NCBI GenBank assembly: GCA_017474485.1
Contig: JAFVHO010000033.1
Location: 1 to 40,094, forward strand
Reading direction: 5' to 3'
From: Prevotella sp.
GTDB lineage: Bacteria; Bacteroidota; Bacteroidia; Bacteroidales; Bacteroidaceae
Length of the DNA: 40,094 nucleotides
Shown: positions 142 through 37,912 of the stretch, one piece after another
How the letters are laid out: every line of letters begins with the position of its first letter
Position numbering within the stretch: the stretch's first letter is position 1
Made by a program: the position numbers and the translations under genes
Notes under the pieces: model-generated
What the model was told of the DNA's origin: nothing
What the model saw: only the letters and a program-made list of their open reading frames with translations
Databases searched by the model: none

Positions 142-2160
142 CTATTGCATGTTGATGATTTCAATATTAGTGACGGCTTCGCCAGCTGTGCGGTCGGCTT
201 CGCGAGGCAGATATATGGGCGCTTCAGGTTGTAGGGGCAGGATGCGCAACTCCAGTTCAGTGCAGTGCTTGGGCAGTCGCCACAAGCCATAGAGGAACGG
301 GCGACCGTAATAGAAGTTATCGGCCACCAGCTTACCATCGGCATAGAGACGGGCGCAGTCGCCACGATAGCAAATGCGCAAGAGGGAAGTTGGTTGAAGG
401 TGGGTAAGAGGAATCCTATAGACGGCAGCATGATTCCAATCCTGCTCCGCAGGAGCCTCGGCTACCTTAGCCTTGCCCTTCTTGACGATGCGCAGCGGAC
501 CGGCATCCTTTACCTTCTCACTCTTCACGATTAATTGTTCACTGTTCACTGTTTCCTTTTCCCTCAAAAACAGCCGTTCAGCCTGTTGACGGGTCAGCAG
601 ATAGATATTGGCATATACAGGCGTTTCTGTGCCCTTGGCCTTGACATGCTTCAGCGTTTTGCCACTCTGAAGAGCTATAGTCGTGGTAATGCCCGGAATC
701 TGCATCATGTAGAGTTTGCCGTCACGACGCGCCACCAACTGAGCCGTAGCATAGCGGATGCCTGCAATATTGACGGGGAAAAAAGCCATGCAACCAGAAG
801 GGACTGTCAGACGCGGCAAAGTAATGCCACAGGCTGTCAGCTGTTGGTGCTTGGCTGTCAGCTGCTGAAAGCGCTCGTAGTTATTGATAAAGATGAAGCC
901 GCTGTCACCCTGGCTGCGGACTGCCCAGCGAAGTGCCTCGTCCTGACCGCGTTTCAAGTCCTGCGGTGCAGGGAATGAAGCCTCCATCGGAGCAAGCGTC
1001 TCACCAAAGTCCTGCATGAAGAGGTGGAGCGGACGAAGCATGTAATATTGCGGATAGGTCTGTCCGAATTCACCAAGCGGTGCCTGGAAGTCATAGGTGC
1101 AAACGGGCAGGTCGTTATTAGCCGTACCAGGCGACGTTTGTACCTCGTTCAGGGTATGGAGCACGCCCTCAGGATTGGTGCCACCATGATACATGTAATA
1201 GCCAAGCAGATTGCTGCCGGAACCGAGTTTGACAAGTGCCATTGAGTAAGCATCCTCTGGATAGACGTAAGGACGACGGTGGTAGGCCGTGACCATACCG
1301 CCACCCAGTTCGCAGGTGAAGTACGGATAGCTGTCATCGCCCTTCGACGTCTTAGCCTCCTGTTTACCAAGGAGGTCGGTGCCGATGGCTGTCGACGAGC
1401 GGAAAGCCTTGAAGTTGAAGGCCTTGTAGTACTGGCCACAGCCCTCTGTCACTTCTTTGTCCCAGAAGCCGTCGGCATAGTCACCATAGAGTGGCAGCAT
1501 CTCGCCATAAGGTACGGGGGTGCGCAGTTCTGGCCATCCGGTACGGGTGTAGAAAGGCAGGTCGAAGCCAATCTTCTGGGCAATCTGCTTGAGAGCCATG
1601 AGGTAAGCACCGTGTCCGCGATATTCATTGTCAAACTGGGCGGCTATGACGGGACCTCCGTCCTTCCATTGCAAGCCTTGTACCTGTGTAAAGATCTGGC
1701 GATACAATTTCTCAGCCAAACTAAGAAACACAGGGTTCTGCTCACGCAGGCGACAGCCCTTCGTGAAGACCCAGTCAGGAATACCACCATTGCGCACTTC
1801 ACCATGACAGAACGGGCCCAGACGCAGGACGACAGGCATCTGCTCCTGTTTGCATACCTCCAAGAAACGGCGTAGGTCACGTTGTCCGTCCCAGCGGAAT
1901 ATGCCCTCCTGTTCCTCGATATGACTCCAGAAAACATAGGTGGCAATCATCGTCACCCCACCCTCGCGCATCTTCCGCACCTCTTGTTGCCACTCGTCTG
2001 CAGGCACACGTGAATAGTGTATCTCGCCCATCACGGGACAGACGCGATGCCCGTCGATGATAAGACTCTGAGCGTCCCACGTCACAGGTTTCCCAAAATC
2101 GGCAGCCTGCATCATGAGCACGCCCATGACCATACAGGCCAACAGCATTGTTTTTCTCAT
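142..2160 (-). CDS. GH35 beta-galactosidase, secreted
   Basis: A 672-residue protein with an N-terminal signal peptide (about residues 1-20). The GH35 signature GGPVIAAQFDNEY lies at residues 168-180, with Glu179 as the expected acid/base. Glu284 in FTCELGGGM is the expected nucleophile. GH35 enzymes remove terminal beta-galactose; here the likely substrate is galactan or arabinogalactan side chains of rhamnogalacturonan-I. It lies 4 nt after rhaM and 3 nt before the next enzyme, so it is part of one operon. Residues around 536-550 contain a low-complexity stretch (VNSEQLIVKSEK) encoded by a word repeat that looks inserted between domains. Family assignment is firm; the exact substrate is inferred. 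Confidence 0.92.
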   Translation of the reverse strand: MRKTMLLACMVMGVLMMQAADFGKPVTWDAQSLIIDGHRVCPVMGEIHYSRVPADEWQQEVRKMREGGVTMIATYVFWSHIEEQEGIFRWDGQRDLRRFLEVCKQEQMPVVLRLGPFCHGEVRNGGIPDWVFTKGCRLREQNPVFLSLAEKLYRQIFTQVQGLQWKDGGPVIAAQFDNEYRGHGAYLMALKQIAQKIGFDLPFYTRTGWPELRTPVPYGEMLPLYGDYADGFWDKEVTEGCGQYYKAFNFKAFRSSTAIGTDLLGKQEAKTSKGDDSYPYFTCELGGGMVTAYHRRPYVYPEDAYSMALVKLGSGSNLLGYYMYHGGTNPEGVLHTLNEVQTSPGTANNDLPVCTYDFQAPLGEFGQTYPQYYMLRPLHLFMQDFGETLAPMEASFPAPQDLKRGQDEALRWAVRSQGDSGFIFINNYERFQQLTAKHQQLTACGITLPRLTVPSGCMAFFPVNIAGIRYATAQLVARRDGKLYMMQIPGITTTIALQSGKTLKHVKAKGTETPVYANIYLLTRQQAERLFLREKETVNSEQLIVKSEKVKDAGPLRIVKKGKAKVAEAPAEQDWNHAAVYRIPLTHLQPTSLLRICYRGDCARLYADGKLVADNFYYGRPFLYGLWRLPKHCTELELRILPLQPEAPIYLPREADRTAGEAVTNIEIINMQ
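514..556. repeat. Word repeat inside the GH35 gene (cttctcactcttcac / gttcactgttcactg)
   Basis: Short units related to ttcact/ttcac follow one another in the plus-strand reading. They encode a polar low-complexity segment in the C-terminal half of the GH35 protein without breaking its frame. The same vocabulary occurs at 10123-10153, 15541-15563 and 30020-30047. Confidence 0.6.
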
Positions 2161-2164
2161 GGTC

Positions 2165-2482
2165 TCAATCCAAATGGAATACTTCTTGAATAGGAATAGT
2201 GACAGGTGAGTTATCAGGATTCACCTCCATGATGTCAGCCATCATGTCCCACCAGCGCTGCGTGATAGGGTCTACATCGGTTGTGTCTTGTGAGTTGCCT
2301 TCACCCTCGCACTCCTGATAGGCAAAGAGCAGATTGGTGTCCTTGTCCCAGAAAATGCTATAGTTCTTGACGCCAGCCTCGTGAATCATCTCCACCAGTT
2401 CAGGCCAGATAGCTGCATGGCGACGCTGATACTCCTCTTCGCAGCCAGGCTTCAAATACATTTTAAATCCGAATCGCTTCAT
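2165..2482 (-). CDS. rhaM: L-rhamnose mutarotase
   Basis: A 105-residue protein that matches the RhaM family over its whole length: N-terminal RFGFKMYLKPG, the central EYQRRHAAIWPEL block with the conserved His, YSIFWD, and QRWWDMM near the C-terminus. RhaM interconverts the alpha and beta anomers of L-rhamnose in the cytoplasm, so that rhamnose freed by alpha-rhamnosidases can be isomerised. No signal peptide is present, as expected. It sits between the acetylesterase gene (28 nt upstream) and the GH35 gene (4 nt downstream). This ties the operon to rhamnose-containing pectin (RG-I). Length is typical of the family. Confidence 0.95.
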   Translation of the reverse strand: MKRFGFKMYLKPGCEEEYQRRHAAIWPELVEMIHEAGVKNYSIFWDKDTNLLFAYQECEGEGNSQDTTDVDPITQRWWDMMADIMEVNPDNSPVTIPIQEVFHLD

Positions 2483-2510
2483 ACCTTATTATATATTGCC
2501 TATTAAACAT

Positions 2511-3686: not shown

Positions 3687-3708
3687 TGTAGTTTGAATGT
3701 TTATGCGT

Positions 3709-14100: not shown

Positions 14101-14219
14101 GCAATCTCAGGGAATTGTTCCAATGGCAGACTGGTCAGTCCGATGATACCTACCAGTACCATCAACACTGATATGACGCATGCCAGAATCGGTCTGTCTA
14201 TAAATGTCCTAACGTTCAT
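11094..14219 (-). CDS. RND efflux transporter, HAE1 (AcrB/MexB) type
   Basis: A 1041-residue inner-membrane protein beginning MNVRTFIDRPILACVISV, the standard first transmembrane segment of HAE1 pumps. Two large periplasmic loops and 12 membrane segments are evident. The proton-relay Asp pair is visible around residue 400 in GTVVDDAIVVVEAV. Such pumps export drugs, bile acids or other amphiphiles with a periplasmic adaptor and a TolC-like channel. The start overlaps the stop of the adaptor gene by 4 nt. No outer-membrane channel gene follows; the next gene is convergent. The 3' end overlaps the reductase gene by 20 nt. Confidence 0.96.
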   Translation of the reverse strand: MNVRTFIDRPILACVISVLMVLVGIIGLTSLPLEQFPEIAPPTVRIMASYTGANAETVQKSVVVPLEEAINGVEGMMYMTSSASNNGTASIGIFFRQGTDPNMAMVNVQNRAATVQGRLPSDVVKGGITVRKRQTSNIKQLAVYSPDSTFDRSFLANYTKINIEPRLSRIGGVGEVNVMGADYSMRIWLDPLKMAQYGLVPSDVTKVLDEQNVEVATGTLGAESQNTFQYVLKYRGRYEEEKDYENLVIRSLPNGDVLRIGDIARVELGSQNYNIIGETNGSPSVNISINQVAGSNANEIIKQIDAEVEDIRQSLPPGIVIEDLESKKDFLDASIASVVETLLEALALVILVVFLFLRSWRATIIPGVAIMVSLIATLAVIYAIGFSLNMLTLFALVLVIGTVVDDAIVVVEAVQAKLDEAPTVVDGSPVDTSSYHSTVEAMHGITSALVTTTLVFMAVFVPVCFIGGVTGTFYTQFGLTMAIAVAISLFNALTLSPALCALIMKKQNPQPLRVLRRLPSYDSFVRGYKQGLSKILRKQWLAFGLVVVAISGLYWMMRTTKTGLVPNEDMGTVFINVQASPGSSLQQTYHILKEVEERIKDLPQLRIYSLIAGNSNNFEQSSSNGNFTLKLKKWDERKGDGDDVQSVVDEIYRRTADIANAKIQVNTQNMLPGFGRINGFELHIQDKHGGTINDLLMQTNKLIAALNERPEISRAITNFSLKYPQYRVEVDAALCKRRGVSPTEVLQALSGYVGGSYASNFVRFTKLYRVMVQASPEYRLDAESLNNIFVRTSSGEMSPIGQYLTLTRIYGSETLSRFNLFPSIMVNGTAAEGYSSGQAINAIRETAAEVLPEGYGYEFGGMSREEASSQNTTALVFVICIIFIYLILCALYESVFIPMAVILSVPFGLAGSFIFAWMWGLENNIYMQTGLIMLIGLLSKTAILLTEYASARRRQGMSILAAALDAAAVRLRPILMTSLTMVFGLLPLAIATGVGANGNRSLGVGAIGGMLIGTIALLFIVPILFVVFQAIEERVFKRRRR

Positions 14220-15358
14220 TTCTTTTCCTTCTGACCTCTCACTTCTTTCTTCTCACCTCTCACCTCTATTCCTTCCTTCAACAGTCCGGCACCTTCAGCA
14301 ATGATGGTGTCGCCCACGTTCAGGCCTTCTTCTACAATATACTCTTTGCCATTGTTTTGCGGAAACAGCGTCACGGCAGTGGCCTTCGTCTTGCCGTCCA
14401 CCACGCGATAGACGAACACACGGTTCTGCAGTTCGTAAGTAGCCTCCTGAGGAATGACGACAACCTGATCACGCTGCGTAGGAACCATCACCGTAGCACT
14501 ACCACCGTCGCGCAACAGGTGCTGCGGATTGGGGAATACGGCACGCAAGGTAACGGCACCCGTCTGGGCATCCACCGTACCACTGACAGCATCAATGCGT
14601 CCTTCCACGGGATATTCCGTCCCACTGGCCAGTCGCAGCTTGATACTGGGGGCCTTACTGATGAAGTCGGCTGTCGAGCCATAACGGTCTATCAGATTGA
14701 TGACGGCACGCTCCGTCACCGAGAAGTAGGCATACATCTGGCTATCGTCAGCAACGGTCACCAGTGGTTCGCTGATGTTGCTACTCACCAGAGCACCCAC
14801 GTGCCAGGGAATCATCGAGGCCACACCGTCTACAGGGCTTTTCACCTCCGTACACGACAGCTGCCAGCGGGCATTCTTCTCCTGAGCCTTGGCCTGCACC
14901 AGTGCCGCCTGGGCCTCTAACAGTTCGTGGCGCGTGGTCTCCACGCTGAAGTCACTCACCACACTACCCTCCTTCAGTTTCAGCTGACTATTGTAGTTCA
15001 TCTTTGCCGTCGACAGCTTGGCCTCGGCACTCTCGCGGTTGGCAATGGCCACCTCCAGAGCAGCCTGATAGGGCGTCTGGTCGATAATGAACAGCGTCTG
15101 TCCACGTTTCACGGGCTTACCTTCACTGGTACAAATACGCGTGATGTTACCCGTCACCTGTGGACGAATCTCCACAATCTGCCGTCCCGTCAACTTGGCA
15201 CTGTATTGCTGAGTCAGGGTCATGTCCTTCTTGCCCACCACCATCGTCTGATACCGTGCCGCATCGTGAGCCTTTTTCTCCTTGCTGTCACACGCCGTTA
15301 AGCTGCACGCTAAGACGGCGCCCAGACAGTATGCCATGTATTTCTCCATTCTTATCAT
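14216..15358 (-). CDS. RND periplasmic adaptor (membrane fusion protein), lipoprotein
   Basis: A 380-residue adaptor of the AcrA/MexA kind. A lipobox (SLTAC) puts the lipidated Cys about 20-23 residues from the N-terminus, depending on whether the ATG at 15358 or 15349 is used. The order is: lipoyl half-motif (IRPQVTGNITRICTSEGKPVKRGQTLF), alpha-helical hairpin, second lipoyl half (SPVDGVASMIPWHVGALV), beta-barrel and membrane-proximal domain. It is cotranscribed with the pump (4-nt overlap). The last residues, VRGEKKEVRGQKEKK, come from a purine-rich word repeat rather than a conserved domain end. Confidence 0.93.
   Translation of the reverse strand: MIRMEKYMAYCLGAVLACSLTACDSKEKKAHDAARYQTMVVGKKDMTLTQQYSAKLTGRQIVEIRPQVTGNITRICTSEGKPVKRGQTLFIIDQTPYQAALEVAIANRESAEAKLSTAKMNYNSQLKLKEGSVVSDFSVETTRHELLEAQAALVQAKAQEKNARWQLSCTEVKSPVDGVASMIPWHVGALVSSNISEPLVTVADDSQMYAYFSVTERAVINLIDRYGSTADFISKAPSIKLRLASGTEYPVEGRIDAVSGTVDAQTGAVTLRAVFPNPQHLLRDGGSATVMVPTQRDQVVVIPQEATYELQNRVFVYRVVDGKTKATAVTLFPQNNGKEYIVEEGLNVGDTIIAEGAGLLKEGIEVRGEKKEVRGQKEKK
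14221..14275. repeat. Pyrimidine-rich word repeat at the 3' end of the adaptor gene
   Basis: Units of the form ctcact, tctcac and cctctcac follow each other and encode the charged C-terminal tail of the adaptor. A related block lies inside the MATE gene at 16139-16172. Confidence 0.5.
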
Positions 15359-15392
15359 ATTGGCTTCATGTCTTGTTTAGTTAGAAACACCT

Positions 15393-15401
15393 GCAAAGGT
15401 A
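15393..15401 (-). promoter_or_regulatory. -7 promoter box for the RND operon
   Basis: The minus strand reads TACCTTTGC, 34 nt before the adaptor start. A second similar box (TACCTTTGA, 15468-15476) lies further upstream. Confidence 0.65.
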
Positions 15402-15431
15402 CGAATAAGTGAGCAAAATACCAAATTTATT

Positions 15432-15460
15432 TGAGTATTTTCGAACGTGAGTACTTTCGA
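15432..15460. promoter_or_regulatory. 13-bp direct repeat upstream of the RND promoter (candidate operator)
   Basis: tgagtattttcga (15432-15444) and tgagtactttcga (15448-15460) differ at one base and are 16 bp apart. They lie between the two -7-like boxes and are a plausible regulator site for the pump operon. Confidence 0.4.
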
Positions 15461-15482
15461 GCAACGCTCAAAGGTACGAAAA

Positions 15483-15515
15483 AAACATTAAACATTAAGC
15501 ATTAAACAATAAAAA
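15483..15515. repeat. Word repeat between the MATE and adaptor genes (cattaaa)
   Basis: cattaaacattaagcattaa and a further aacaat form a short tandem array in the intergenic region, followed by an A-run. Confidence 0.5.
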
Positions 15516-15544
15516 AAAGACGGCGGTAGCAAATTTTGCACTCT

Positions 15545-16831
15545 TCACTTCTCACTTTTCACGATAATCGTCTGTACGATGCCGCGAACAGCGAGGAAGA
15601 GAATCATGGCGAGCCACAGGCCGTGATTGCCCATGATGCCAATGGCAATAGTGGCGGTGCCGAAGAATACAAGTGCGGCAATGGCTGAAGAAACAAGCAT
15701 GCCGCGTGTCTGCGTCGTGCCAATGAACAGACCGTCCCAAATAAAAGCTGCCACGCCTGCTACAGGTATCAGGTAGGCCCACCATACGTAAGCCTGCGAG
15801 GCCTCAACCACCTGTGGCTCGTCAGTCAGCAGACGGAGGAAGAGCGTTCCGCCCACGACATAGGTGATGGTAAAGATGATGGTCATCAGCGCACCCCAAC
15901 CAAACAGACGGCGAACAACATCATGATAGGCATCCATATCCTTTGCGCCCCAATACTTGCCTCCCAAGGCCTCGCCGGCAAAGGCAAAGCCGTCGAGAAT
16001 GTAGGAGAACAGCAGGTAGAGTTGCATCAACAGCGTGTTGACGGCCAGAATGGTTGCTCCCTGACGGGCTCCCGCAGAGGTAAAGTAGAGGTTGACTGCC
16101 ACGAGACAAAGTGTTCGTAAAAAAATGTCGCGATTTGAGGAGAAGTAAGAGGTCAGAGGTGAGAGGTGTGAGGATGGTCTCCACGATCGTAAGACCTTCC
16201 GATAATACCGCCATAGGAACCATAGCGCCATCAAGCATCCGGCATACTGCGCCACGACGGTACCCAGTGCCACACCCTCGACCTTCATGCCCAAGCCGTA
16301 GACAAAGGTCAGCGAAGCCAGAATGTTGACCACGTTCTGTATAATGGAGACAAACATGGGGATGCGCGTGTTCTGCATGCCAATAAACCAACCGCTAAGG
16401 CTATACAAACTCAACATGGCGGGTGCGCCCCAGACGACGATATTGAAATAGGTAACGGCCAAAGGGCGTACGTCATCTGAAGGGCCGATAAACCATAGCA
16501 TGCACTCGCGGACAGGCCATTGCAGCACGACAATTAGCAAGGCAATAGTCAGCGACACCCAGCCCGAACGTACTAACAGGCGTGAGACTTCGCTGAAGTC
16601 ACGGCGTCCGCGGGCCTGTGCCGTCATGCCACTGGTTCCCATCCGCAGGAAACCGAATACCCAGTAGATGAGATTAAAAATCATGGAACCCACAGCAACG
16701 GCACCGATATAGGCTGCCGATCCCATGTGTCCCACGATGGCCGTATCCACCAGTCCCAACAGCGGCACCGTGATGTTCGTCACGATGGCAGGCAGTGCAA
16801 TTTTCAGTATCTGATGGTCTCTCTTATTCAT
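15545..16831 (-). CDS. MATE family efflux transporter (DinF-like)
   Basis: A 428-residue protein with about 12 hydrophobic segments. It starts ILKIALPAIVTNITVPLLGLVDTAIVGH, the hallmark of MATE exporters, with PAMLSLYSLSGWFIGMQNTR in the middle of the N-lobe. MATE proteins exchange Na+ or H+ for organic cations or drugs. The start is 24 nt after the pectate lyase stop, so the two may be cotranscribed. The cytoplasmic loop joining the two lobes (about residues 214-232) contains a word-encoded segment (HLSPLTSYFSS). The last residues, IVKSEK, come from a second word and match a segment in the GH35 protein. Confidence 0.94.
   Translation of the reverse strand: MNKRDHQILKIALPAIVTNITVPLLGLVDTAIVGHMGSAAYIGAVAVGSMIFNLIYWVFGFLRMGTSGMTAQARGRRDFSEVSRLLVRSGWVSLTIALLIVVLQWPVRECMLWFIGPSDDVRPLAVTYFNIVVWGAPAMLSLYSLSGWFIGMQNTRIPMFVSIIQNVVNILASLTFVYGLGMKVEGVALGTVVAQYAGCLMALWFLWRYYRKVLRSWRPSSHLSPLTSYFSSNRDIFLRTLCLVAVNLYFTSAGARQGATILAVNTLLMQLYLLFSYILDGFAFAGEALGGKYWGAKDMDAYHDVVRRLFGWGALMTIIFTITYVVGGTLFLRLLTDEPQVVEASQAYVWWAYLIPVAGVAAFIWDGLFIGTTQTRGMLVSSAIAALVFFGTATIAIGIMGNHGLWLAMILFLAVRGIVQTIIVKSEK
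16139..16175. repeat. Word repeat inside the MATE gene (agaggt(g/c)aga)
   Basis: Plus-strand units gaggagaagtaagaggtc and agaggtgagaggtgtgagg follow each other without disturbing the MATE frame. They encode a non-conserved part of the central loop. Confidence 0.6.
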
Positions 16832-16855: not shown

Positions 16856-18634
16856 CTAAAACTTCATTATAACCCTTTTACCGTTCACGATGTATAATCC
16901 CTGCGTGGAGTTAGCAACCTTGCGCCCATCCAGAGTGTACCAACTTTTGTCTTTAACTTCCTTAACTTCTCTAACTTCTTTAACTTCTGTCACATCATTT
17001 TCACCAAAGAAGCCGACGAGGGATGACTGGTAGTTGTCGAGCAGGCTGCCCAAAGTGGTGTCATAGGCAGAATCGGCATCGTCGTTACCCACATTATCAC
17101 GGAAAGTATAGGTAAAGTCGCCATGATTCATGCGGCCTGCACCGTAGTAACCTGTCACGAGGGCAGGAACATCATCAGCAGCAACAGGGGTATAGGTGTA
17201 CATCAGCGAGGCATTGGTGTCGAAATTGTTGTAGGGTGTGCCTCCTTTCTTGGTCACTTCCGTCTCAGGCACCTGCTCGTCGCGTGTGGCTGTTTCATAA
17301 GCATCATAGCCCGTAGAAGCAGGGGCGTTCTGGTTGTAATACTTGAAGTTGGCAATGGTCTTGTCGAAGTAGTTGCCATAGGCCTTAATCATTCCACCGT
17401 CCTCACCAGAGAAGGTGCCACTGCCTAGGGCATCGGTGCCCTGTCCAGATGAGAGGATGGGCTTCTTGGTCTTCAGAAAGTAGTTGTTCTCGACAAACAC
17501 GCTGGCGCCCGAGGTGGCTCCCACACCGTACTTGGCACAGTTGTCGAAGTAGTTGTTCCAGACGTGGACACTCATGGTGCGCACACGTGGATGGCGTGAG
17601 TCAGAGTGGTCGAACCAGTTGTGGTCGTACGAGATGTAGTTGGGGCCACTCTCCGACTTCATGCCAAACATATTAGACTTACCTGTATCCCAGAAGCGGT
17701 TATAGCTGACGGTGACATACTTCGAGTCGCTCTTCACGTCAGTTGCACCGTCGCCCTTGGCATGGTCACCACTACCGTGCTTGCCATAGAACTGATCGGT
17801 ATGGTGAATCCAAATATTGGAATTATCAGTATCAAGCGAGATGGCATCGTCCATGCAACGCATGATGGCGAAGTTGCGGAACTCGACACTCTTGGCATTA
17901 CGTACCAAGAAGCCGAAACCGAACAGAGTTGCATCGTCGCCAATGCCCTCGAAGGTGATGTTCAGCTCGCTATCAGCTTTCTTACCCTTGACCTGCAAGC
18001 CCTCTGCCGAACTGCTGATGTGGTCGAGGTCGTCTACGGTAATCAATCCGATGAAACGGAAGGCAATAGGTGTGGTGTCGTAACCCTTCTGATAGGCGTC
18101 GACAATGGTCTGAATGCCTGCACATGTAGTGATATTGGAATCCTTGGAGCCCGTCTTAACGGTGGTAGTAATGGTCTTGGCTGTGTTCTTCGTTACATAG
18201 AACACCTTGGCACCTGACTTCAGCGTACCGTCGCTATTATAAGCACCAGGAGCAGGCCATCCATTTATAAAGGCAAAGCCCTCGCGACTGTAGTTTAGCA
18301 CTTCCAGATCGGAGGTTGTGTTTTCATGCGCAGTGATTTCCGTGCCCTCAGCACTAACGGGCACAATCTTCATCACGTACGTACCTGCCTGCAACCCTAC
18401 CACATCGGCACGTCCATAGGTACCGTAGTTGCGCACCAGCTGAGCGTCAATCTTGGTAAAGTCAGCGTACTGTCCACCCTTAACATAGACGTTATAGGTC
18501 TTGGCATCATCCTCCAGCGAAAACTTCACGTAGGCCGACTCCAACCAACCACGGGCCTCGATAATCTGGACAACGCCAGCATGGGCAAGCAATGTCAGAC
18601 AAAATAACAATCCTAGCAGTATAATCTTTCTCAT
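16856..18634 (-). CDS. PL1 pectate lyase, secreted, with short C-terminal tail
   Basis: A 592-residue protein with a signal peptide ending near residue 19 (LLAHA). A fibronectin-like N-domain (residues about 20-115) precedes a parallel beta-helix. Helix motifs typical of PL1 are present: SNIWIHHTDQF, DGATDVKSDSKYVTVSYNRF with the Ca2+-binding Asp, and DSRHPRVR with the catalytic Arg. It cleaves polygalacturonate by beta-elimination, complementing the rhamnogalacturonan operons. The C-terminal 27 residues (YTLDGRKV...GLYIVNGKRVIMK) resemble the short tail found on many secreted Prevotella proteins. A repeat-encoded linker (TEVKEVREVKEVKDK) joins it to the enzyme. Whether the tail is a T9SS signal is inference. 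Confidence 0.92.
   Translation of the reverse strand: MRKIILLGLLFCLTLLAHAGVVQIIEARGWLESAYVKFSLEDDAKTYNVYVKGGQYADFTKIDAQLVRNYGTYGRADVVGLQAGTYVMKIVPVSAEGTEITAHENTTSDLEVLNYSREGFAFINGWPAPGAYNSDGTLKSGAKVFYVTKNTAKTITTTVKTGSKDSNITTCAGIQTIVDAYQKGYDTTPIAFRFIGLITVDDLDHISSSAEGLQVKGKKADSELNITFEGIGDDATLFGFGFLVRNAKSVEFRNFAIMRCMDDAISLDTDNSNIWIHHTDQFYGKHGSGDHAKGDGATDVKSDSKYVTVSYNRFWDTGKSNMFGMKSESGPNYISYDHNWFDHSDSRHPRVRTMSVHVWNNYFDNCAKYGVGATSGASVFVENNYFLKTKKPILSSGQGTDALGSGTFSGEDGGMIKAYGNYFDKTIANFKYYNQNAPASTGYDAYETATRDEQVPETEVTKKGGTPYNNFDTNASLMYTYTPVAADDVPALVTGYYGAGRMNHGDFTYTFRDNVGNDDADSAYDTTLGSLLDNYQSSLVGFFGENDVTEVKEVREVKEVKDKSWYTLDGRKVANSTQGLYIVNGKRVIMKF
16943..16993. repeat. Word repeat encoding the pectate lyase linker (ttaacttc)
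   Basis: Plus-strand units ctttaacttcc, ttaacttctc, taacttcttt, aacttctgtc repeat with a period near 9 bp. On the coding strand this gives alternating Val-Lys/Arg-Glu. Confidence 0.65.
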
Positions 18635-18960: not shown

Positions 18961-20211
18961 ATGCAATACAAGATAAAAGCACCAAATGTGCTACGCCACA
19001 CTGCTAAGCTGCCTGCTTCGAAAAGCATCAGTAACAGAGTGTTGGTGATTCATGCACTGACAGGAGGACACACGTTACCCAGCAATCTGTCGGACTGTGA
19101 CGACACGGAAGTGATTGTGGAGGCACTGAATCATAATCCCTATGAGATTAACATCAAGGCTGCCGGCACCGCCATGCGTTTCATGACAGCCTATCTGGCT
19201 GTGAAGGAAGGTGAGGAGCACGTGCTGACGGGTACAGAACGCATGCGCCACCGCCCGATAGCTGTGTTGGTGGACGCCCTGCGACGCTTAGGTGCCAACA
19301 TTGAATATGCGGGTGAGGAGGGCTATCCCCCACTCCGTATCAAGGGACATGTGCTGGAGGGCGGTCTACTAGAGGTGGCAGGCAACATCAGTTCGCAATT
19401 CATCTCAGCACTATTACTGATTGGTCCGTGCCTGAAGAACGGCCTGACATTACACATGACGGGCGACGTCATATCACGCCCATATATCGACCTGACACTG
19501 TGGACGATGCGCGAGTTTGGCGCTGATGCTGAATGGAGCGACTACGACACCATCGTGGTAAAGCCACAAACCTACAAGGACAGGGCCTACCTGACGGAGA
19601 ACGACTGGAGTGCAGCATCATACTGGTATGAAATGATAGCACTCTCGAAGAATATAGACGACGAAATTAAATTGGAGGGATTGATGGACGGTTCGAAGCA
19701 AGGCGACTCGCAGGTGCGCTACATCTTCAGTCTGCTGGGCGTGAAGACCACCTTTGCCTCGAAGCGTCCGGGCAAACCGACCACCGTGACACTCAAGCAT
19801 TCAGGACGCTGCGTGCCACGTTTGGAGTACAACTTCGTCAACTCACCCGATCTGGCACAGACCTTTGTAGTATGTTGTGCGCTGATGAACGTGCCCTTCC
19901 ATTTCACAGGCCTCTCTACTCTGAAAATCAAGGAGACTGACCGCATTGAAGCTTTAAAGACAGAGATGCGGAAACTGGGCTACGTTATTCGCAGTGCCAA
20001 CGACAGCGAACTGATATGGGACGGAGAACTCTGCGCACCAACGATGGAAGCAGGCATCGACACCTATGAAGACCACCGCATGGCACTGGCTTTTGCACCT
20101 GCAGCCCTACGGTTTGAAGGACTGATAATCAATAATCCACAAGTGGTGACGAAGTCATATCCACAATTCTGGGAAGACCTGACTCAATGCGGGTTCCGCA
20201 TTGAGAATTAA
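18961..20211 (+). CDS. aroA: 3-phosphoshikimate 1-carboxyvinyltransferase (EPSP synthase)
   Basis: A 416-residue cytoplasmic enzyme of the shikimate pathway. It joins phosphoenolpyruvate to shikimate 3-phosphate. Family motifs are in order: LPASKSISNR near the N-terminus, GTAMRFMTAYLA, NISSQFISALLL, KETDRIEALKTE and the C-terminal DHRMALAFAPAAL. The length is slightly short for AroA but typical of the Bacteroidota form. It has its own promoter. The last codons and the stop (GAG AAT TAA) fall in a word repeat that also fills the gap to the next gene. Confidence 0.96.
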   Translation: MQYKIKAPNVLRHTAKLPASKSISNRVLVIHALTGGHTLPSNLSDCDDTEVIVEALNHNPYEINIKAAGTAMRFMTAYLAVKEGEEHVLTGTERMRHRPIAVLVDALRRLGANIEYAGEEGYPPLRIKGHVLEGGLLEVAGNISSQFISALLLIGPCLKNGLTLHMTGDVISRPYIDLTLWTMREFGADAEWSDYDTIVVKPQTYKDRAYLTENDWSAASYWYEMIALSKNIDDEIKLEGLMDGSKQGDSQVRYIFSLLGVKTTFASKRPGKPTTVTLKHSGRCVPRLEYNFVNSPDLAQTFVVCCALMNVPFHFTGLSTLKIKETDRIEALKTEMRKLGYVIRSANDSELIWDGELCAPTMEAGIDTYEDHRMALAFAPAALRFEGLIINNPQVVTKSYPQFWEDLTQCGFRIEN

Positions 20212-20239
20212 GAATTAGGAATTACGAATTAGGAATTAT
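20202..20239 (+). repeat. Word repeat across the aroA stop and the porW start (aattaggaatta)
   Basis: gagaattaagaattagg, aattacgaattaggaattat run from inside aroA to the start codon of the next gene. The same word, in the other orientation, fills the birA/tadA intergenic region at 33524-33561. Confidence 0.6.
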
Positions 20240-23200: not shown

Positions 23201-23354
23201 GATTATCATTCAGCCAGAGGATGAGGACAGCGAGGACGACAAGAGTCAAGAGCCAAAAGCTGAAAGCCAAGAGCCAACAGACGACCCGATCTTCAACAAC
23301 GGACCCGTGCAGCAACAGAACAACTTCCCAGACTTTGACGAAGATTTCTGGTGA
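20238..23354 (+). CDS. porW: PorW/SprE-like TPR lipoprotein of the type IX secretion system, with an unusual N-terminal extension
   Basis: An open frame of 1038 codons. From about residue 61 it matches PorW/SprE: a lipobox-like LLLMLLVLTACS (Cys71), RWWHSFNARYNTYFNG, then many TPR-type helices, a coiled coil (about 460-510), and a second TPR half. PorW/SprE is an outer-membrane-associated lipoprotein needed for T9SS. Residues 1-60 are odd: a transmembrane helix (3-22) and a small Cys motif (CASCTSRSEC). This looks like a separate short membrane protein joined in frame. A TTG at 20379 would give a normal lipoprotein signal peptide. Near the C-terminus a word repeat encodes SQEPKAESQEP. PorX follows at 111 nt. 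Confidence 0.85.
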   Translation: MQFLLIVIISLVVLGAIAALFSIGGKDEPIVTKEGDCASCTSRSECKLADVIDKSKKACHLLLMLLVLTACSTKKNTPQNRWWHSFNARYNTYFNGQQAFIDGTVEKENGNKDNYTELIPLYAVGNKQSRDLGKGNFSRAIEKSEKAIKQHSIKARPEWNKSRRKTQKDIEWLSRREYNPFIWRAWLLLGKSQFQQGEFEEAAATFSYMTRLYATQPAILGIARAWQAKSYVELDWIYDAEDIIVKQRRDTMHFKARKDWDFTLADYYLRSEQYDQAIPYLRQVIKHEKRRKQKAREWFLMGQLQARQGNREEAYKAFRHVTRLNPPYEMEFNARIAQTEVMAEGNAKRMISRLKRMAASDNNKDYLDQVYYAIGNIYMAQKDTLQAIEAYEQGVKKGTRNGIEKGVLLLTLGNIYWEREKYADAQRCYGEAIGLLDKDRTDYNELSYRSKVLDELAPHTSAVELQDSLQRLAKMSEEKRLKVIDKLIEDLKKKEKEERRAQEEAEAEKELAKQSAVGNRNQPNRQQQTTTPTPTTGGNGLWYFYNPQSVNQGKRTFEQQWGKRENADDWQRMNKTVVAMTTDNPEMPDSLENVENLADDATVASDSVAGQKWEVPDTLANDPHNREYYLAQIPFTEEQIEASNLLIMDGLFHSGIIFKDKLDNLTLSEKTLSRLLTQYPTFEHNDEALYHLFLLYSRQQRQEQADSSLARLQSDYPESQWTILLSDSNFVENQRFGVHIEDSIYAATYDAFKGDRYDEVSANARLSETRFPLGAHRPKFLFVEGMALLNQGDAKGCTERMQQVVEKYPQSEVSELAGMIIKGVQQGRQLHGGKFDMGDVWSRRAIDMASDSTRTDTLRFERDTKYVFLLAYQLDSVNQNQLLFEMAKHNFSNYLVRNFDIVTDQDANGLCRMLISGFLNYDEARQYARGLHNANGQLSTLLRACRHLIVSEDNLRLLGTSYSYRDYELFFEKQIEPVEISTRSLLEEIIIQPEDEDSEDDKSQEPKAESQEPTDDPIFNNGPVQQQNNFPDFDEDFW
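23244..23281 (+). repeat. Word repeat in the porW C-terminus (agccaa(a/g)agc)
   Basis: Units gtcaagagcc, aaaagctgaa, agccaagagcc, aacag encode a polar segment before the conserved acidic end. The same vocabulary makes the insertion in tsaE (25262-25320). Confidence 0.55.
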
Positions 23355-23370
23355 TATTAATATTTAGCAG

Positions 23371-23427
23371 CGGACTACAGGACAAACAGGACTCTCCGCA
23401 TCAAAAGTCCTTAAGTCCTGTAGTCCT
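23371..23427 (+). repeat. Inverted and direct word repeat in the porX leader
   Basis: ggactacaggac (23372-23383) pairs exactly with gtcctgtagtcc (23415-23426). The 24 bases 23403-23426 are identical to 30807-30830, directly before pssA. Confidence 0.75.
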
Positions 23428-23465
23428 TGCAAAAAATAAAGAATAGTAAAGTAAAACGAAAAGAT

Positions 23466-25013: not shown

Positions 25014-25057
25014 GGTAAAGGTAAAAAAGTAAAAAGGTAAAAAAGTAAAAGGAAAAA
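25013..25057 (+). repeat. Word repeat between porX and tsaE (aaaaagtaaaaaggta)
   Basis: The whole gap is gaggtaaagg, taaaaaagta, aaaaggtaaa, aaagtaaaagg and similar, a purine-rich array of about 8-bp units ending at the tsaE start. Confidence 0.6.
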
Positions 25058-25059
25058 AT

Positions 25060-25515
25060 ATGGAAATCAAGATTAAGGATATAGAACATATTCGTGAGGC
25101 TGCTCGCGAATTTATCGATTACATTGGCGACCACCGCGTGTTTGCTTTCTACGGCAAGATGGGTGCGGGTAAGACCACTTTTGTTAAGGCCATCTGCGAA
25201 GAGTTAGGCGTCGAGGATGTCATCACCTCCCCTACCTTTGCGATTATCAATGAGTATGCTTTTAGCTCTTGGCCTTTAGCTATTAGCACAGAGCCAACAG
25301 CCAATAGCCAACAGCCAACAACCATATACCACTTCGACTTTTACCGTATCAAGAAATTGGAAGAGGTGTACGACATGGGCTACGAGGACTATTTTTATAG
25401 CGGTGCACTCTGCTTTATTGAGTGGCCAGAACTGATAGAAGAAATCCTGCCCGATGATGCCGTACGAGTTAGCATCAGCGAGCAGGAAGACGGTAGTCGC
25501 CTCGTAACGTTCTAA
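25060..25515 (+). CDS. tsaE: tRNA threonylcarbamoyladenosine biosynthesis ATPase TsaE
   Basis: A 151-residue protein with the P-loop GKMGAGKTT at residues 32-40, [10 protein letters not shown] at 57-66, HFDFYRI at 91-97 and [12 protein letters not shown]. TsaE binds ATP and works with TsaB and TsaD to make t6A37 in tRNA. Between NEY and YHFDFYRI, where the family usually has only a few residues, there are about 22 residues ([20 protein letters not shown] and two Thr). They are encoded by tandem agccaacag words and keep the frame. The gene is the third of a porW-porX-tsaE run. The enzyme is expected to be functional because the insertion falls in a loop. Confidence 0.94.
25262..25320 (+). repeat. 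Word repeat inserted in tsaE (agccaacag / tagcc)
   Basis: tagctcttggcctttagc and agccaacagccaatagcc are followed by aacagccaac. The array encodes an extra loop in TsaE. Confidence 0.7.
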
Positions 25516-30019: not shown

Positions 30020-30047
30020 TCTTCACTTTTCACTTTTCACTTTTTTT
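30020..30047. repeat. Word repeat upstream of psd (cttttcac)
   Basis: cttcacttttcacttttcac and a T-run lie directly before the psd -7 box, so the array supplies the -33 side of that promoter. Confidence 0.55.
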
Positions 30048-30840: not shown

Positions 30841-31539
30841 ATGAAGAAGCATATACCAAACACGATTACTTGTCTGAATCTCATTTCAGGTTGCATAGCC
30901 ACCTATTGGGCTTTTCAGAGCAACTATGAGCTGGCACTGCTATTCATTGTTATCGGTGCTGTGTTCGATTTCTTCGACGGCATGAGCGCACGTTTACTGC
31001 ACGTTAGTTCACCCATCGGAAAAGAACTCGACTCGCTGGCTGATGACATTACCTTTGGATTTGCTCCCTCAGCCATCGTCTTCAGCTACCTTAATTCTCA
31101 ATTGTCAATTGTCAATTGTCAATTTGTGCCATACTTGGCCTTCATCATGGCAGCTTTTTCGGCCCTGCGACTGGCCAAGTTCAACCTCGACGAACGTCAA
31201 GCCTTAGGGTTTATCGGACTGCCCACGCCAGCCAATGCCCTGTTTTGGGGATCGTTGATTTGGAGTCTCGACTGGCAGAGATGGTTTGAGCCTTATTTGC
31301 TTCCCGATTTTTGGCTTTACATCGTCTTAGTGCTCATTCCTATCAGCAGCTACCTGCTGGTAAGCGAGATACCGATGTTCGCCCTGAAGTTCAAAACGTG
31401 GGGCTGGAAGGGCAACGAGGTAAAATACATTTTCCTGATTACCTGCATCCCCATGCTGTTATTGCTAGGTGTAAGTGGACTGGCAGCCATCATTGCGTGG
31501 TACGTCATCCTATCGGCGATTCATGACAAATTCTATTAG
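30841..31539 (+). CDS. pssA: CDP-diacylglycerol-serine O-phosphatidyltransferase
   Basis: A 232-residue integral membrane enzyme from the ATG at 30841. The CDP-alcohol phosphotransferase motif is complete: Asp43, Asp46-Gly47, Ala50-Arg51, Gly60, Asp64 and Asp68. It makes phosphatidylserine for psd. Residues about 84-95 (LNSQLSIVNCQF) lie in the loop after the active-site helix and are encoded by three copies of a tcaattg word, so this loop appears enlarged. Six to eight membrane segments are evident. Confidence 0.95.
   Translation: MKKHIPNTITCLNLISGCIATYWAFQSNYELALLFIVIGAVFDFFDGMSARLLHVSSPIGKELDSLADDITFGFAPSAIVFSYLNSQLSIVNCQFVPYLAFIMAAFSALRLAKFNLDERQALGFIGLPTPANALFWGSLIWSLDWQRWFEPYLLPDFWLYIVLVLIPISSYLLVSEIPMFALKFKTWGWKGNEVKYIFLITCIPMLLLLGVSGLAAIIAWYVILSAIHDKFY
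31093..31125 (+). repeat. Word repeat inserted in pssA (attgtca)
   Basis: attctca followed by attgtca three times (period 7-8 bp) in frame within pssA. Confidence 0.7.
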
Positions 31540-32655: not shown

Positions 32656-32670
32656 AATCTTTTTTCTTTT

Positions 32671-32733
32671 TAGCAACGGACTTACACGGACTAATACGGA
32701 CAATCCGAAAAAATCCGCTGTCGTCCGCTGCAA
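32671..32733. repeat. Word repeat between birA and pyrH (cggac / gtccgctg)
   Basis: acggacttacacggacta, atacggacaatccg and ccgctgtcgtccgctgc follow each other. The last 17 bases recur inside birA at 33428-33444. Confidence 0.65.
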
Positions 32734-33510
32734 TTATATAATAAATTGTATTTCTTTGAATGCGTAAAGTTGTTCCTGACCGTCCTTGTCCACCAACAAA
32801 AGCCTGCCATCAGGCAAAACGTCCATGAGCCTTGCAGTAAAACAAGTTGTTTTGGTGGCGTAAGTGGCATACTTTTGACGTCTATAGAGCCTTTCTCTGT
32901 ATGTAAAATAAGTTGTTTTACTATTAAAAGCCTCATCGAATGTTGCTAGGAATGCCTTGAGTAACGCCTCAAGGTCCGTTTCCTTGCCTATTAACTGATA
33001 GAGGGAAACAGGGTTAGGGGCATCACTCTTAAACTCACGTTGGTTGACATTCAGACCAATACCGATAATACTGTTTTTAATCATACTGCCCTGTAGACGG
33101 TTCTCAATCAGTATGCCGCAAATCTTTCGGTCACCCACATAGATGTCGTTAGGCCATTTGATTTCAACCCTCTGAGTGATATAGCTCTGCAACGTCTGGC
33201 ATATAGCTACAGAAACAGCCTCCGTAATCCGAAACTGCTCATTAGCAGAAATATCCGTAGGATGAATCAGCAACGAGAACAGCAGGTTCTTGCCCCGCTC
33301 CGACTCCCACGTATTCGTACCACAGCCACGACCCGCTGTCTGGTAATCGGCAACCACAGCAATATTGATGGCAGCGGACGACAGCAGACTTTTTCGGACA
33401 CCAACATTAACTATCGTCTGTGTAAGTCCGCTGTCGTCCGCTGCTAAACCTTCTTTCAGCCAGCGATTCGTCGAGTCTGTCTCGTCAATATGAATGATTT
33501 TCCATTCCAC
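32734..33510 (-). CDS. birA: Biotin-[acetyl-CoA-carboxylase] ligase, with in-frame repeat insertions
   Basis: A 258-residue biotin-protein ligase without an N-terminal HTH domain. Family blocks: IDETDSTNRWLKE, VVADYQTAGRGCGTNTWES (residues 52-70, biotin-AMP loop), KWPNDIYV and GILIENRL. It attaches biotin to carboxylase subunits. Residues 22-48 (LAADDSGLTQTIVNVGVRK and LLSSAAI) replace a short connector and are encoded by an inverted word repeat. Near the C-terminus, KTTYFT and KTTCFT are also word-encoded. The start is a GTG only 3 nt after a -7 box, so the mRNA may be leaderless. Confidence 0.92.
   Translation of the reverse strand: MEWKIIHIDETDSTNRWLKEGLAADDSGLTQTIVNVGVRKSLLSSAAINIAVVADYQTAGRGCGTNTWESERGKNLLFSLLIHPTDISANEQFRITEAVSVAICQTLQSYITQRVEIKWPNDIYVGDRKICGILIENRLQGSMIKNSIIGIGLNVNQREFKSDAPNPVSLYQLIGKETDLEALLKAFLATFDEAFNSKTTYFTYRERLYRRQKYATYATKTTCFTARLMDVLPDGRLLLVDKDGQEQLYAFKEIQFII
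33366..33444. repeat. Inverted word repeat inserted in birA
   Basis: gcagcggacgacag at one end is the exact reverse complement of ctgtcgtccgctgc at the other (14 bp). Between them lie related cggac and gtccg units. The whole 79 bp is in frame in birA. Confidence 0.8.
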
Positions 33511-33522: not shown

Positions 33523-33523
33523 A

Positions 33524-33561
33524 CAAATAATTCCTAAATCCTAATTCCTAATTCCTAATTT
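33524..33561. repeat. Word repeat between birA and tadA (ctaattc)
   Basis: aattcctaaatcctaattcc and taattcctaatt run between the two divergent -7 boxes and make up most of the intergenic region. Confidence 0.65.
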
Positions 33562-34023: not shown

Positions 34024-34218
34024 CATTATTTTCTCTTAAAGCTAAAAGTTACCAACACGTGAGGAAAATAATGTTTCAGGCCCTGAAACTAATATTCCAA
34101 GTCCTGAAATTTATATTCCAAGACCTGAAACATAAAAAACACTTCGACAGAAACAATACTTTCGGAGTACGCGTTTTTTCTCTTGGAGTAATTTTTATTT
34201 CTTTCGGAGTAAGCGGAA
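34024..34218. other. Intergenic region of word repeats between tadA and the HEPN gene
   Basis: No credible gene. The left half repeats ccaag(t/a)cctgaaa and related units (34072-34130). The right half repeats ctttcggagta or cttggagtaa three times (34157-34213). Confidence 0.55.
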
Positions 34219-34934: not shown

Positions 34935-34951
34935 ATTCCATTACATATTCG

Positions 34952-34960
34952 TTGCAAAGA
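34952..34960 (-). promoter_or_regulatory. -7 promoter box for the MNT-HEPN pair
   Basis: The minus strand reads TATCTTTGC, 17 nt before the MNT start codon. Confidence 0.65.
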
Positions 34961-35339: not shown

Positions 35340-35370
35340 CGGGAGGTTATGCCCTGTAGCATACCTCCCG
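35340..35370 (-). terminator. Terminator of the truncated lipoprotein copy
   Basis: cgggaggt (35340-35347) pairs with acctcccg (35363-35370), with an inner atgc/gcat. On the minus strand a T-run (complement of 35331-35336) follows a few bases later. It corresponds to the terminator at 37938-37969 after the intact copy. Confidence 0.75.
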
Positions 35371-35396
35371 AACAAATTATAACATTCTTATTCTAA

Positions 35397-35735
35397 TTAT
35401 TCATAGAATCCAGAGTAGCGCGTTCCTGATACGAGGTGCTTTGCATAACCAAATCTTGCACCATAGGAATCGTCAGTAAATGTAATGTAGAACGAAATAC
35501 TGTCGGTTGGCATACCGTGAATGTTATGACCCTGACCATACAGGATCTTACCATCTGTGATAGTTGCTGTCTCAGCAGCAAGAGGATTGCCATCCTTGTC
35601 TTTAGGTGTCTGACCTGCAGCAATAGCATCAGCTATCTCCTGATTGGAAGCATCGTAAGGAATATTTTCTGCTGAGAAGGTACCAGCACCATAGTTGATG
35701 GGCATCTTAAACTTAAAAGACCAGAAATAACCTCT
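35397..35735 (-). pseudogene. 5'-truncated duplicate of the lipid-binding lipoprotein gene
   Basis: The reading frame matches the last 110 or so residues of the intact lipoprotein encoded at 37998-38594. Examples are NQEIADAIAAGQTPKDKDGN and GHNIHGMPTDSISFYITFTD, with only scattered changes. Similarity stops near 35730, at the codons for FWSFKFK. Signal peptide, lipobox and N-terminal half are missing and no proper start is present. The 3' flank and terminator were duplicated as well. The high identity suggests a recent event or gene conversion. It is probably not expressed. Confidence 0.8.
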
Positions 35736-35777
35736 GCCGTATCTCAAACAGCGTATCTGTTAATATCATAAACATGA

Positions 35778-35813
35778 TTATCAAACTTTTGATAATTATA
35801 ATTTTGATAATTG
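35778..35813 (+). promoter_or_regulatory. Inverted plus direct repeat overlapping the ATPase promoter (candidate operator)
   Basis: attatcaaa (35778-35786) and tttgataat (35789-35797) form a palindrome. ttttgataatt occurs at 35788-35798 and again at 35803-35813, the second covering the TTTG -33 box at 35804-35807. Confidence 0.5.
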
Positions 35814-35825
35814 CAGGAAAATGTT

Positions 35826-35834
35826 TAACTTTGC
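35826..35834 (+). promoter_or_regulatory. -7 promoter box for the ATPase gene
   Basis: TAACTTTGC with TTTG at 35804-35807 (18-nt spacer), 27 nt before the ATG at 35862. Confidence 0.75.
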
Positions 35835-35861
35835 AGGCAATAAGTATGTAAATATCAGTAT

Positions 35862-36995: not shown

Positions 36996-37050
36996 TAATG
37001 CCGAAGTATTTGGAATTAATGCAGAAGTATTTAGAAATAAATGTGACGTC

Positions 37051-37583
37051 AACAAAAACATGGTGCACCTTCTGCACCCTGTGCACCTGAAAGAATTTCA
37101 ACAAATAGACGCATTATACTTGTTTACAGCTTGTTATATAGATGTCATGCGCTTTTCAGAGCACGAATTATCATTCAAAAATGCGCACACCCTATCCTAC
37201 ATAAAAGCGCCGCTGTTACTTCGCATAATGGTGCGACATACCAACATAAAGGCTACTGGTTGTAGTAAAACAACTTGTTTTGCAAAATTTAGAGGCACTT
37301 TACGAAAAAATAGAGCCGCTATTTTTCCAAACGGAGCCGCTATTTTTCCAAACGGAGCCGCTATTTTTTCAAACGGGGCCACCGTTTGGTTGAATTTTCT
37401 CGAGAATTCAGAGCCGTAGTGGCAGCAGAAAATTGTATGGCAGTTGCGCATTTTCGAGTAGCTATTCCGTTTGTGAAAATGGAGTCTTTAGAAATGTAAA
37501 CCTCAGTCATGTAGGATTTTATAAGATGTTTGTTGAAACATTTTCAGGTGCATAGGGTGCAGAAGGTGCAGCATGTTTTTGTT
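37051..37583. repeat. Pair of 55-bp imperfect inverted repeats bounding about 0.5 kb
   Basis: 37051-37105 and the reverse complement of 37529-37583 differ at 5 of 55 positions by my count. Both contain tgcaccttctgcaccct. No transposase lies between them. Confidence 0.7.
37315..37377 (+). repeat. 21-bp tandem repeat, three copies
   Basis: The unit gccgctatttttccaaacgg plus a is exact at 37315-37335 and 37336-37356, and has two changes at 37357-37377. Confidence 0.9.
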
Positions 37584-37815
37584 ATCCTTATTAATGTAGC
37601 GCCAGCTTTCTGCGTCACCCATGTCTCATGCAGAATTCCCTATTTATCAGGGGTTCAAGTTTGTTTTATCCATGGTAGTGTTAAAACCGCCAAAGTCAGG
37701 AGCCGCGCGTTTTTGGGGCAGGTCTTCTGCTTATGGAAAAGAGCCGACGTTCGATCCCAATGATTTGCGTCATGCGATAAGCAAGCAGCCCACCCGCTTA
37801 TCGCTCGAAGGCGAC

Positions 37816-37912
37816 GAGCGATAAGCAGAAGAGCCACGAGGAGTTCACTCGCGGGCCACGAGCGATAAGCAAGCAAGGCGCGAGCGATAAGCAAGCAAGG
37901 CACGAGCGATAA
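37816..37912 (+). repeat. 22-bp repeat array (gagcgataagcaagcaagg)
   Basis: Units start at 37816, 37838 (divergent), 37860 and 37882, with a partial one at 37904. The first also forms a 10-bp inverted repeat with cttatcgctc at 37797-37806. Confidence 0.8.

Follow-up and report, generated by a model that had tools for sequence, protein, structure and literature searches.

Short Tandem Word Arrays in a Prevotella Genome as Probable Arms of Small Elements Carrying an S23p/IVP Gene

The window analysed here, a stretch of 40,094 nucleotides from a Prevotella sp. (contig JAFVHO010000033.1), carries many arrays of short tandem or inverted DNA words in intergenic gaps as well as inside genes. With a probability of about 0.78, we assign these word arrays to the arms of small elements that resemble the intervening sequences (IVS) of rRNA genes and carry an S23p/IVP gene (PF05635). 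Such arms flank IVP genes in many phyla, and their words follow the IVP lineage, also without vertical descent. At a syntenic junction a whole unit is found in one genome and lacking in others, and identical copies of arms lie dispersed elsewhere. Those window arrays that clearly match an arm (8/19), and probably more of them, would be solo arms and not products of local slippage. The window is the whole contig C79 of an assembly of 2.98 Mb in 236 contigs with 72.7% completeness; C, L and G numbers are our handles for contigs of this genome, loci and genomes.

Results and Discussion

Tandem repeats in the window were listed with TRF (39 rows, partly overlapping), and the spectrum of exact runs of at least 9 was compared to 12 dinucleotide shuffles. 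Six runs of period 7, five of period 14 and eight of period 21 were found, each against about 0.2 in the shuffles, and every other period gave two at most. A sample of 265 kb of the same genome, consisting of the window and 19 readable stretches (a twentieth, L005, is all N), contained 32 period-7 and 12 period-8 tandem arrays, where two shuffles gave 0.5 and 0 on average. Tandem heptanucleotide units thus exceed chance, as in short tandemly repeated repetitive sequences (STRR) and long simple sequence repeats (LSSR). The initial annotation of this DNA had proposed more than fifteen sites with short word repeats, at least eight of them inside genes, and words common to distant loci; this was borne out, and the words are enriched over shuffled sequence. 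Among 20 window arrays listed, 8 lie within genes, 3 overlap a gene end and 9 are intergenic. One hundred sites in the sampled genomes fell into 51 classes of 7-base word out of 1172 possible. With orthologous sites counted in, identical-word pairs numbered 34 within and 83 between genomes, where letter-shuffled words gave 2.2 and 12. Array density per 100 kb amounted to 12 in this genome, 28 in G007 and 52 in G033. Of the other genomes sampled, 17 of 34 from the genus (17–40 kb each) and 11 of 13 from the order (15–20 kb each) had no arrays.

In the words of the 100 sites, TGA/TCA was observed 60 times compared to 29.7 in letter-shuffled words, a twofold excess, while TAG and TA steps were rarer. 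The idea that the words act as stop-codon cassettes was dropped: a stop triplet is present on some strand in 93% of them, but already in 82.5% of letter-shuffled words, and TAG/CTA is depleted (16 vs 28.3), though TGA/TCA is enriched.

The arrangement of the arrays pointed towards a carrier gene. In the sampled stretches together with 80 loci from a scan for (GTGAANA)x4 (at least 119 contigs, with titles among those listed that span many phyla), array pairs not more than 400 bp apart comprised 47 inverted pairs of the same word, 16 direct pairs and 76 pairs of different words, several from one locus. At distances above 1 kb the respective counts were 25, 53 and 370. In the inverted pairs at L138 and L197 the core codes for a four-helix protein, assigned to TIGR02436 by profile search. 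PF05635 was detected in 48 of 60 genomes including the one studied (44 above the cut-off) and in none of 14 control genomes.

For a systematic comparison 70 PF05635 loci were assembled, 30 as returned by the profile search and 40 picked down its list; 69 were measured, one having too short a flank. Inverted repeats between the two sides of a locus were scored at z>4, and 28 tsaE loci were treated by the same method. Inverted arms, mostly of 7–9-base words, occurred at 57/69 IVP loci and at 0/28 tsaE loci. Periodic arrays were present on both sides at 51/69 compared to 1/28, and on at least one side at 58/69 compared to 9/28. A first pass over 30 IVP loci, four of them clipped and misplaced, had given both-side arrays at 10/30 and the same word inverted at 6/30, with 0/29 each for tsaE. 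After re-orientation (67 loci oriented, 66 tested; 3 lack an open frame where the match was placed) arms were found at 56/66 IVP loci and at 4/400 random open reading frames (ORFs), which served as second control.

The association extends beyond the phylum. From the 80 (GTGAANA)x4 loci 30 array-bearing genomes were chosen, by title 28 outside and 2 inside Bacteroidota, including those of L138 and L197, for which the gene was known beforehand. PF05635 was present in 29 of these 30. Arms flanked 21/29 IVP loci in this set, mainly from other phyla, compared to 3/241 control ORFs, and periodic arrays stood on both sides at 13/29. In a sample of the class of Petroclostridium PF05635 was found in 11/41 genomes, the centre genome included. 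Array density and PF05635 count correlated with rho 0.48 (n=48, kinship uncorrected). In a single case from Scytonema (L448), published TAACTGA words stand as inverted arms on either side of an IVP gene (positions 414-446 and 810-835 of the reverse strand); this gene is one of six PF05635 matches in the genome and was chosen because the listed TAACTGA match adjoined it. The statement of the initial annotation that no mobile element explains the words is not supported in this form: such words, set in inverted arrays, make up the ends of units with a PF05635 (S23p/IVP) gene.

The 56 units measured have a median length of 481 (range 398–709). Their words have a period of 7, 8 or 9, the two arms of one unit match, and different units within one genome carry different words. 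Three units were found in the genome studied, on C191 (arms identical over 38 bp), C13 and C62. C191 and C13 match TIGR02436 with E values of 7.8e-29 and 4.4e-26, respectively, and C62 lies above the PF05635 cut-off. All three sit among protein ORFs and not in a 23S or 16S rRNA gene, so they work like an IVS without being filed as rRNA IVS. The C191 unit starts at the stop codon of a ddl-like gene; its RNA is predicted to fold with −137.7 kcal/mol (z −6.6 on 100 shuffles) with the arms paired. On C62 (L449) the downstream arm of the unit codes for part of a GyrB/ParE-like N-terminus.

Arm words follow the protein. Between genomes, the mean arm similarity rose from 0.21 below 50% protein identity to 0.27 at 50–60% (n=165), 0.36 at 60–70% (n=45), 0.58 at 70–80% (n=10) and 0.71 above 80% (n=3). 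The Mantel rho of 0.202 for the 56 units exceeds the permutation maximum of 0.088. Without same-genome and flank-homologous pairs it is still 0.187, with a maximum of 0.097, and the 15 remaining pairs of at least 65% identity have a mean arm similarity of 0.49 compared to 0.21 below 50%. Concerted evolution of the arms was rejected as a general rule. In 10 orthologous unit pairs it is clear in 3 and the mean favours it in 5, with a within-unit arm mean of 0.62 vs 0.56 between orthologues. The term "self-templated", earlier suggested for these insertions, is not supported, since both arm pairs are more alike than the orthologous arms in only 3 of these 10 cases.

Syntenic junctions differ in whether they hold a whole unit. 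The C191 unit is missing in 7/7 relatives, where the flanks lie 23–168 bp apart at the junctions examined. The C13 unit is missing in 5/7 with flanks 57–134 bp apart; of the other two, G009 aligned poorly (169 bp) and G002 gave no right flank. Several of these junctions carry other solo arms, others plain sequence.

Arms also occur alone. The C191 arm, including an internal variant unit and its inner end, recurs with 100% identity at C234 (43 bp) and at C187 (41 bp), and in the 120–130 bp examined around these two copies a second arm is absent. Arms of AAAGGTAA words, like those of the C13 unit and of window position 25017, gave at least 20 matches in the genome (40 of 342 candidates scored), one of them being the C13 unit's own arm. 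At C120, C110, C13:15058, C94, C166 and C85 inverted AAAGGTAA-word arms lie within about 90–200 bp with no IVP match there. The words at 16946..16988 have copies at C181 (97%) and C85 (88%), and window 15469-15562 is related to C13:10033-10126 (84% over 94 bp). Cores similar to the GACGGCGGTAGCAAATT core of 15483..15562 were found between inverted AGTGAAG-type arms, e.g. at L152, L157 and L204. The hairpin inside tsaE (25258..25325) recurs, likewise in frame and with 84% identity over 61 bp, in a pectinesterase-like ORF at C31 (L398, C31:12600-13100). Arms of the AAAGGTAA type code for the hydrophobic part of a signal-peptide-like N-terminus in 6 of 8 translated loci, and another word does so in a seventh (L334 and L406-L410 at C120, C110, C13, C94, C166 and C85, and L400 at C181). 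Some of these N-termini, as read from the translations, precede a lipobox-like or AxA-like end. The arms were apparently exapted as cores of signal-peptide-like segments.

The window arrays themselves were compared as 19 stretches with the 56 IVP units, with five shuffles per stretch (Table 1). Eight stretches (14219, 15541, 16141, 16946, 20200, 25017, 31090, 33528) score clearly above their own shuffles, and a moderate match was obtained for those at 92, 15483, 23240, 25258 and 30022. Stretches without a clear arm match may be decayed arms, arms of unsampled lineages, or other things.

The same sites in relatives show how mutable the words are. Among 30 TsaE loci including that of the window, the 30 best of 60 genomes, the loop is short in 20 and longer in 10. 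The window carries AGCCAAC there, and the nearest relatives carry ACTCAAC (G007) and TCACCTC (G033). Of twelve sites tried in syntenic relatives, five more (20200, 25017, 30809, 31090, 33520) show the word as same, different or missing. At 20200 the relatives have different words or none. The loop of the PssA-like protein (31090) has AATTGTC in G007, TCACCTC in G033 and no such words in G031 and G025. At 33528 AATTCCT is found in G007 and TTTCATC in G033, and the site is clean in G035, G031 and G025. This supports the earlier claim of insertion: in syntenic relatives a given site holds the segment, lacks it or has a different word instead, and arms have dispersed copies. The comparison with orthologues thus yielded presence and absence, with the restriction that several segments are common to the window and G007. 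Words common to both genomes at several sites indicate that part of the pattern is vertical.

Several observations weigh against the assignment to IVP arms. The window has no IVP gene. No arms at z>4 were found at 12/69 IVP loci and at 8/29 in the array-bearing set, and periodic arrays on at least one side also occur at the 9/28 control loci mentioned above. G018 is dense in arrays and has no PF05635 match; G028, with 15 PF05635 matches, shows one array of period 14 and none of period 7 in the 20 kb sampled. Six of the 19 window stretches (514, 6187, 10118, 23395, 30805, 32676) score hardly or no better than shuffles. Solo arrays with a 10-mer in common with arms of the same genome number 12/87 compared to 6.4 in permutations (p=0.10). 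Of 25 close unit pairs, 10 have flanks in common and 15 have none; the former point to vertical descent in part. No target duplication could be defined at the compared junctions because the junctions themselves turn over. Finally, the direction of the association could in principle be the reverse, with IVP genes captured between older arrays.

The strongest alternative, which we nevertheless consider improbable, is that polymerase slippage at the individual sites generated the words as simple heptanucleotide repeats, which were kept where harmless, with IVP genes merely located in tolerant gaps. The dominance of period 7 in many groups agrees with it, as do the proposal of Mrazek 2007 for long simple repeats, as recounted in the available part of PMC4679880, and the differing heptamer number among Coxiella IVS strains, reported in the portion of PMC4990558 at hand. 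Single-sided arrays at 9/28 control loci and changes of copy number within an arm are likewise compatible with slippage in place. However, slippage creates neither inverted pairs of the same word around one gene family nor words common to loci and species. It also does not produce arms of 41–43 bp that are identical at several loci, internal variant included, nor would it place one insert in frame in two proteins that are unrelated. For some arrays the dispersed identical arms speak against slippage in place.

We hold it to be highly improbable that the arrays are regulatory or insulating sites which selection maintains close to start and stop codons, a role that has been suggested for TAACTGA. 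Many arrays do stand at gene junctions where, in our reading, they supply stop or start codons, and the frequency of stop triplets and the TGA/TCA excess given above would fit such a role; yet the words and their presence are not conserved at a site, and the level in letter-shuffled words and the depletion of TAG/CTA speak against it. Still less probable is a movement by a Y1 transposase (RAYT, PF01797) as for repetitive extragenic palindromes (REP) and bacterial interspersed mosaic elements (BIME): the repeats are short and dispersed in gaps, PF01797 occurs in 26/36 genomes including this one, and 8/29 PF01797 loci have inverted flanks (the ORF being the longest across the locus middle), but word arrays on both sides were found at 0/29 of these loci compared to 51/69 IVP loci.

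For the favoured assignment to IVP arms a mechanism can be outlined. A complete unit of about 480 bp consists of an upstream arm of a few tandem 7-, 8- or 9-base words, a short inner motif, the PF05635/TIGR02436 four-helix gene (an Avd relative) and the same words inverted downstream, and its transcript can fold on the arms into a long stem. The moving form may be RNA or a single-strand hairpin, presumably bound by IVP, which would be needed for movement, with catalysis probably left to a host polymerase or reverse transcriptase (RT). Targets of units, shorter IVP-less hairpins and single arms would be intergenic gaps, the start or stop codons of genes, and protein loops that tolerate an insert. 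Copies that survive in frame would become protein parts, and the copy number of the words would afterwards shift by slippage.

With regard to known systems, the rRNA IVS is closest. We take the S23p ORF of Coxiella to fall in PF05635. The available part of the Coxiella paper describes an IVS with an S23p ORF, a 28-bp terminal stem, a size of 428-444 nt and RNase III cleavage, as well as tandem GACAGAT heptamers before the S23p start, three or two by strain; it also cites earlier ideas on IVS mobility (PMC4990558). The IVS/S23p elements of Coxiella, Leptospira and others share with the present units the S23p ORF, the complementary stem ends and the sporadic distribution (PMC4990558), and their size in Coxiella is close to the median of 481 bp. 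The S23p/IVP protein is encoded by C191, C13 and C62 and not by the window, and complementary ends that form a long stem are seen at 57/69 loci and in the C191 fold. In contrast to the rRNA IVS, the units of this genome lie between protein genes, have word arrays of 7, 8 or 9 bases as arms on both sides, and occur several per genome with different words, with solo arms and IVP-less hairpins dispersed. The earlier designation as a previously undescribed class thus goes too far: a unit of IVS kind and heptamers beside S23p in Coxiella are already known. What is found here is an association of dispersed word arrays with the S23p/IVP gene. Among the titles and abstract openings listed by a literature search none makes this link, a weak absence as the lists were capped and cover open-licence papers only, and six repeat strings sought in the literature were not found.

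Heptamer repeats in print include the STRR of cyanobacteria. The available parts of two papers describe TAACTGA, with a suggested regulatory function (PMC4679880), and GGGNATC (PMC4692102). All are tandem 7-base words, mostly intergenic and in several phyla. They differ from the present arrays in being described as simple or regulatory, with no carrier gene or inverted unit named in the sections at hand; the likeness of TAACTGA to IVP units is the one pair in Scytonema. In sequence and structure PF05635 resembles Avd of diversity-generating retroelements, according to the accessible part of PMC10053308. One IVP of this study matches the Avd model weakly (E 0.0039), and among solved structures 2rld, which is an uncharacterized protein, comes closest in sequence (E 5.8e-35). 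Different from these retroelements, no template/variable repeat was noticed in the units, none having been sought, and no RT or transposase either, PF01797 being the only such family searched, genome-wide. Miniature inverted-repeat transposable elements (MITE) and REP/BIME are understood here by their usual definitions. The IVP-less hairpins of C120, C110, C13:15058, C94, C166 and C85 are MITE-like in being short, dispersed and equipped with the same ends as a gene-bearing unit, and the targeting of gaps recalls REP/BIME with RAYT. The tandem-word arms, the lack of a known transposase in the unit and RAYT loci without such arms set the present units apart. Two four-helix-bundle genes are among 24 unique to one Arthrospira strain, in the part of PMC8700078 at hand, which fits mobility and proves nothing.

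Features of the Window and Separate Repeat Families

Gene bounds and names in the window were read off the ORFs by us; tsaE, pssA, birA, ddl, gyrB/parE-like, nuoC/nuoD and GMD/GFS are putative names given on the basis of the translations.

Table 1. Word arrays and palindromes of the window with their context and their score against IVP arms, compared to shuffled stretches.
Feature	Position	Strand	Context	Arm match (observed vs shuffled)
TCACTNT word array	514..560		inside glycoside-hydrolase-like gene	16 vs 15.2
GTCATAAC words, period 8	6187..6225		gene junction	12 vs 11.6, no match
TCACCTC-word array	14219..14267	-	codes C-terminal tail of HlyD-like gene, operon junction	best arm L268, 25 vs 18.4
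CATTAAA words, GACGGCGGTAGCAAATT core, TCTTCAC words	15483..15562			19 vs 15.2, 18 vs 12.6
TCACCTC words	16141..16173	-	in frame, MATE-like transporter	best arm L268, 25/33 vs 13.6
GAAGTTAAA words, period 9	16946..16988	-	in frame, pectate-lyase-like gene	best arm L279, 30/43 vs 16
AATTAAG/AATTAGG/AATTACG array	20200..20238	+	covers aroA stop and next start	best arm L302, 24/39 vs 13.4
AGCCAA(G/A) words	23240..23277	+	in frame, TPR-like gene near C-terminus	weak, 16 vs 13.4
AGGACT/cggac palindrome, ~85 bp	23356..23445		separate dispersed family	weak, 14 vs 11.2
AAAGGTAAAAAAGTAA solo arm	25017..25058	+	between two co-directional genes	arm of own IVP unit G000:C13 (L317), 34/42 vs 23.2
AGCCAAN-word hairpin	25258..25325	+	in frame inside tsaE	19 vs 14.8
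TTCACTT array	30022..30044		just upstream of promoter-like region before psd	17 vs 13
AATTGTC array	31090..31127	+	loop of PssA-like protein	best arm L310, 29/38 vs 13.8
cggac/gtccg words	32670..32736		separate palindromic family	32676-32701: 10 vs 10.6, no match
cggac palindrome	33371..33450		inside birA-like gene	
AATTCCT array	33528..33560		between divergent promoter-like sequences	best arm L302, 21/33 vs 13.4

The initial annotation grouped unlike repeats into one family, and two groups stand apart from the word arrays. The cggac/gtccg (AGGACT) palindrome of about 85 bp, present three times in the window, is a separate dispersed family with many copies, some inside genes. The copy at 23356..23445 has 14 matches of at least 82 bp in this genome at 74–86% identity, and the one at 33371..33450 has 24, the query itself and reverse-strand overlaps being counted. 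For these palindromes the RAYT explanation may apply. The birA loop of G031 and G022 contains another hairpin-like word, about GGGGGACGGTTCTTTTG. The second group, without a tie to the word family, are the 21/22-base tandem repeats at 34064-34135, 36996-37040, 37313-37380 and 37807-37912, which lie among hypothetical ORFs; relatives often have arrays of period 22 as well (30 arrays). In addition, window 15392-15504 contains a repeat of about 85–110 bp that recurs with 93% over 87 bp at C112 and on other contigs; together with the word arrays next to it, it may form a composite.

Conclusion

Two puzzles are joined by these results, namely short tandem words without a settled cause and S23p proteins without a function: at most of the IVP loci tested, the words make up the arms of a unit. 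A much broader proposal, which we regard as doubtful, is that S23p/IVP units constitute a widespread mobile class, in which the Avd-like protein would bind its own arms and write new arms with a host polymerase or RT. The heptamers of Bacteroidota, cyanobacteria, Beggiatoaceae and other groups might all stem from such units, and the 23S rRNA IVS would then be one niche of the class. If the assignment to IVP arms is true, one kind of element would explain scattered repeat families across phyla, conserved proteins, and apparently signal peptides as well, would receive new in-frame sequence, and what an Avd-like protein does outside diversity-generating retroelements could be tested directly.

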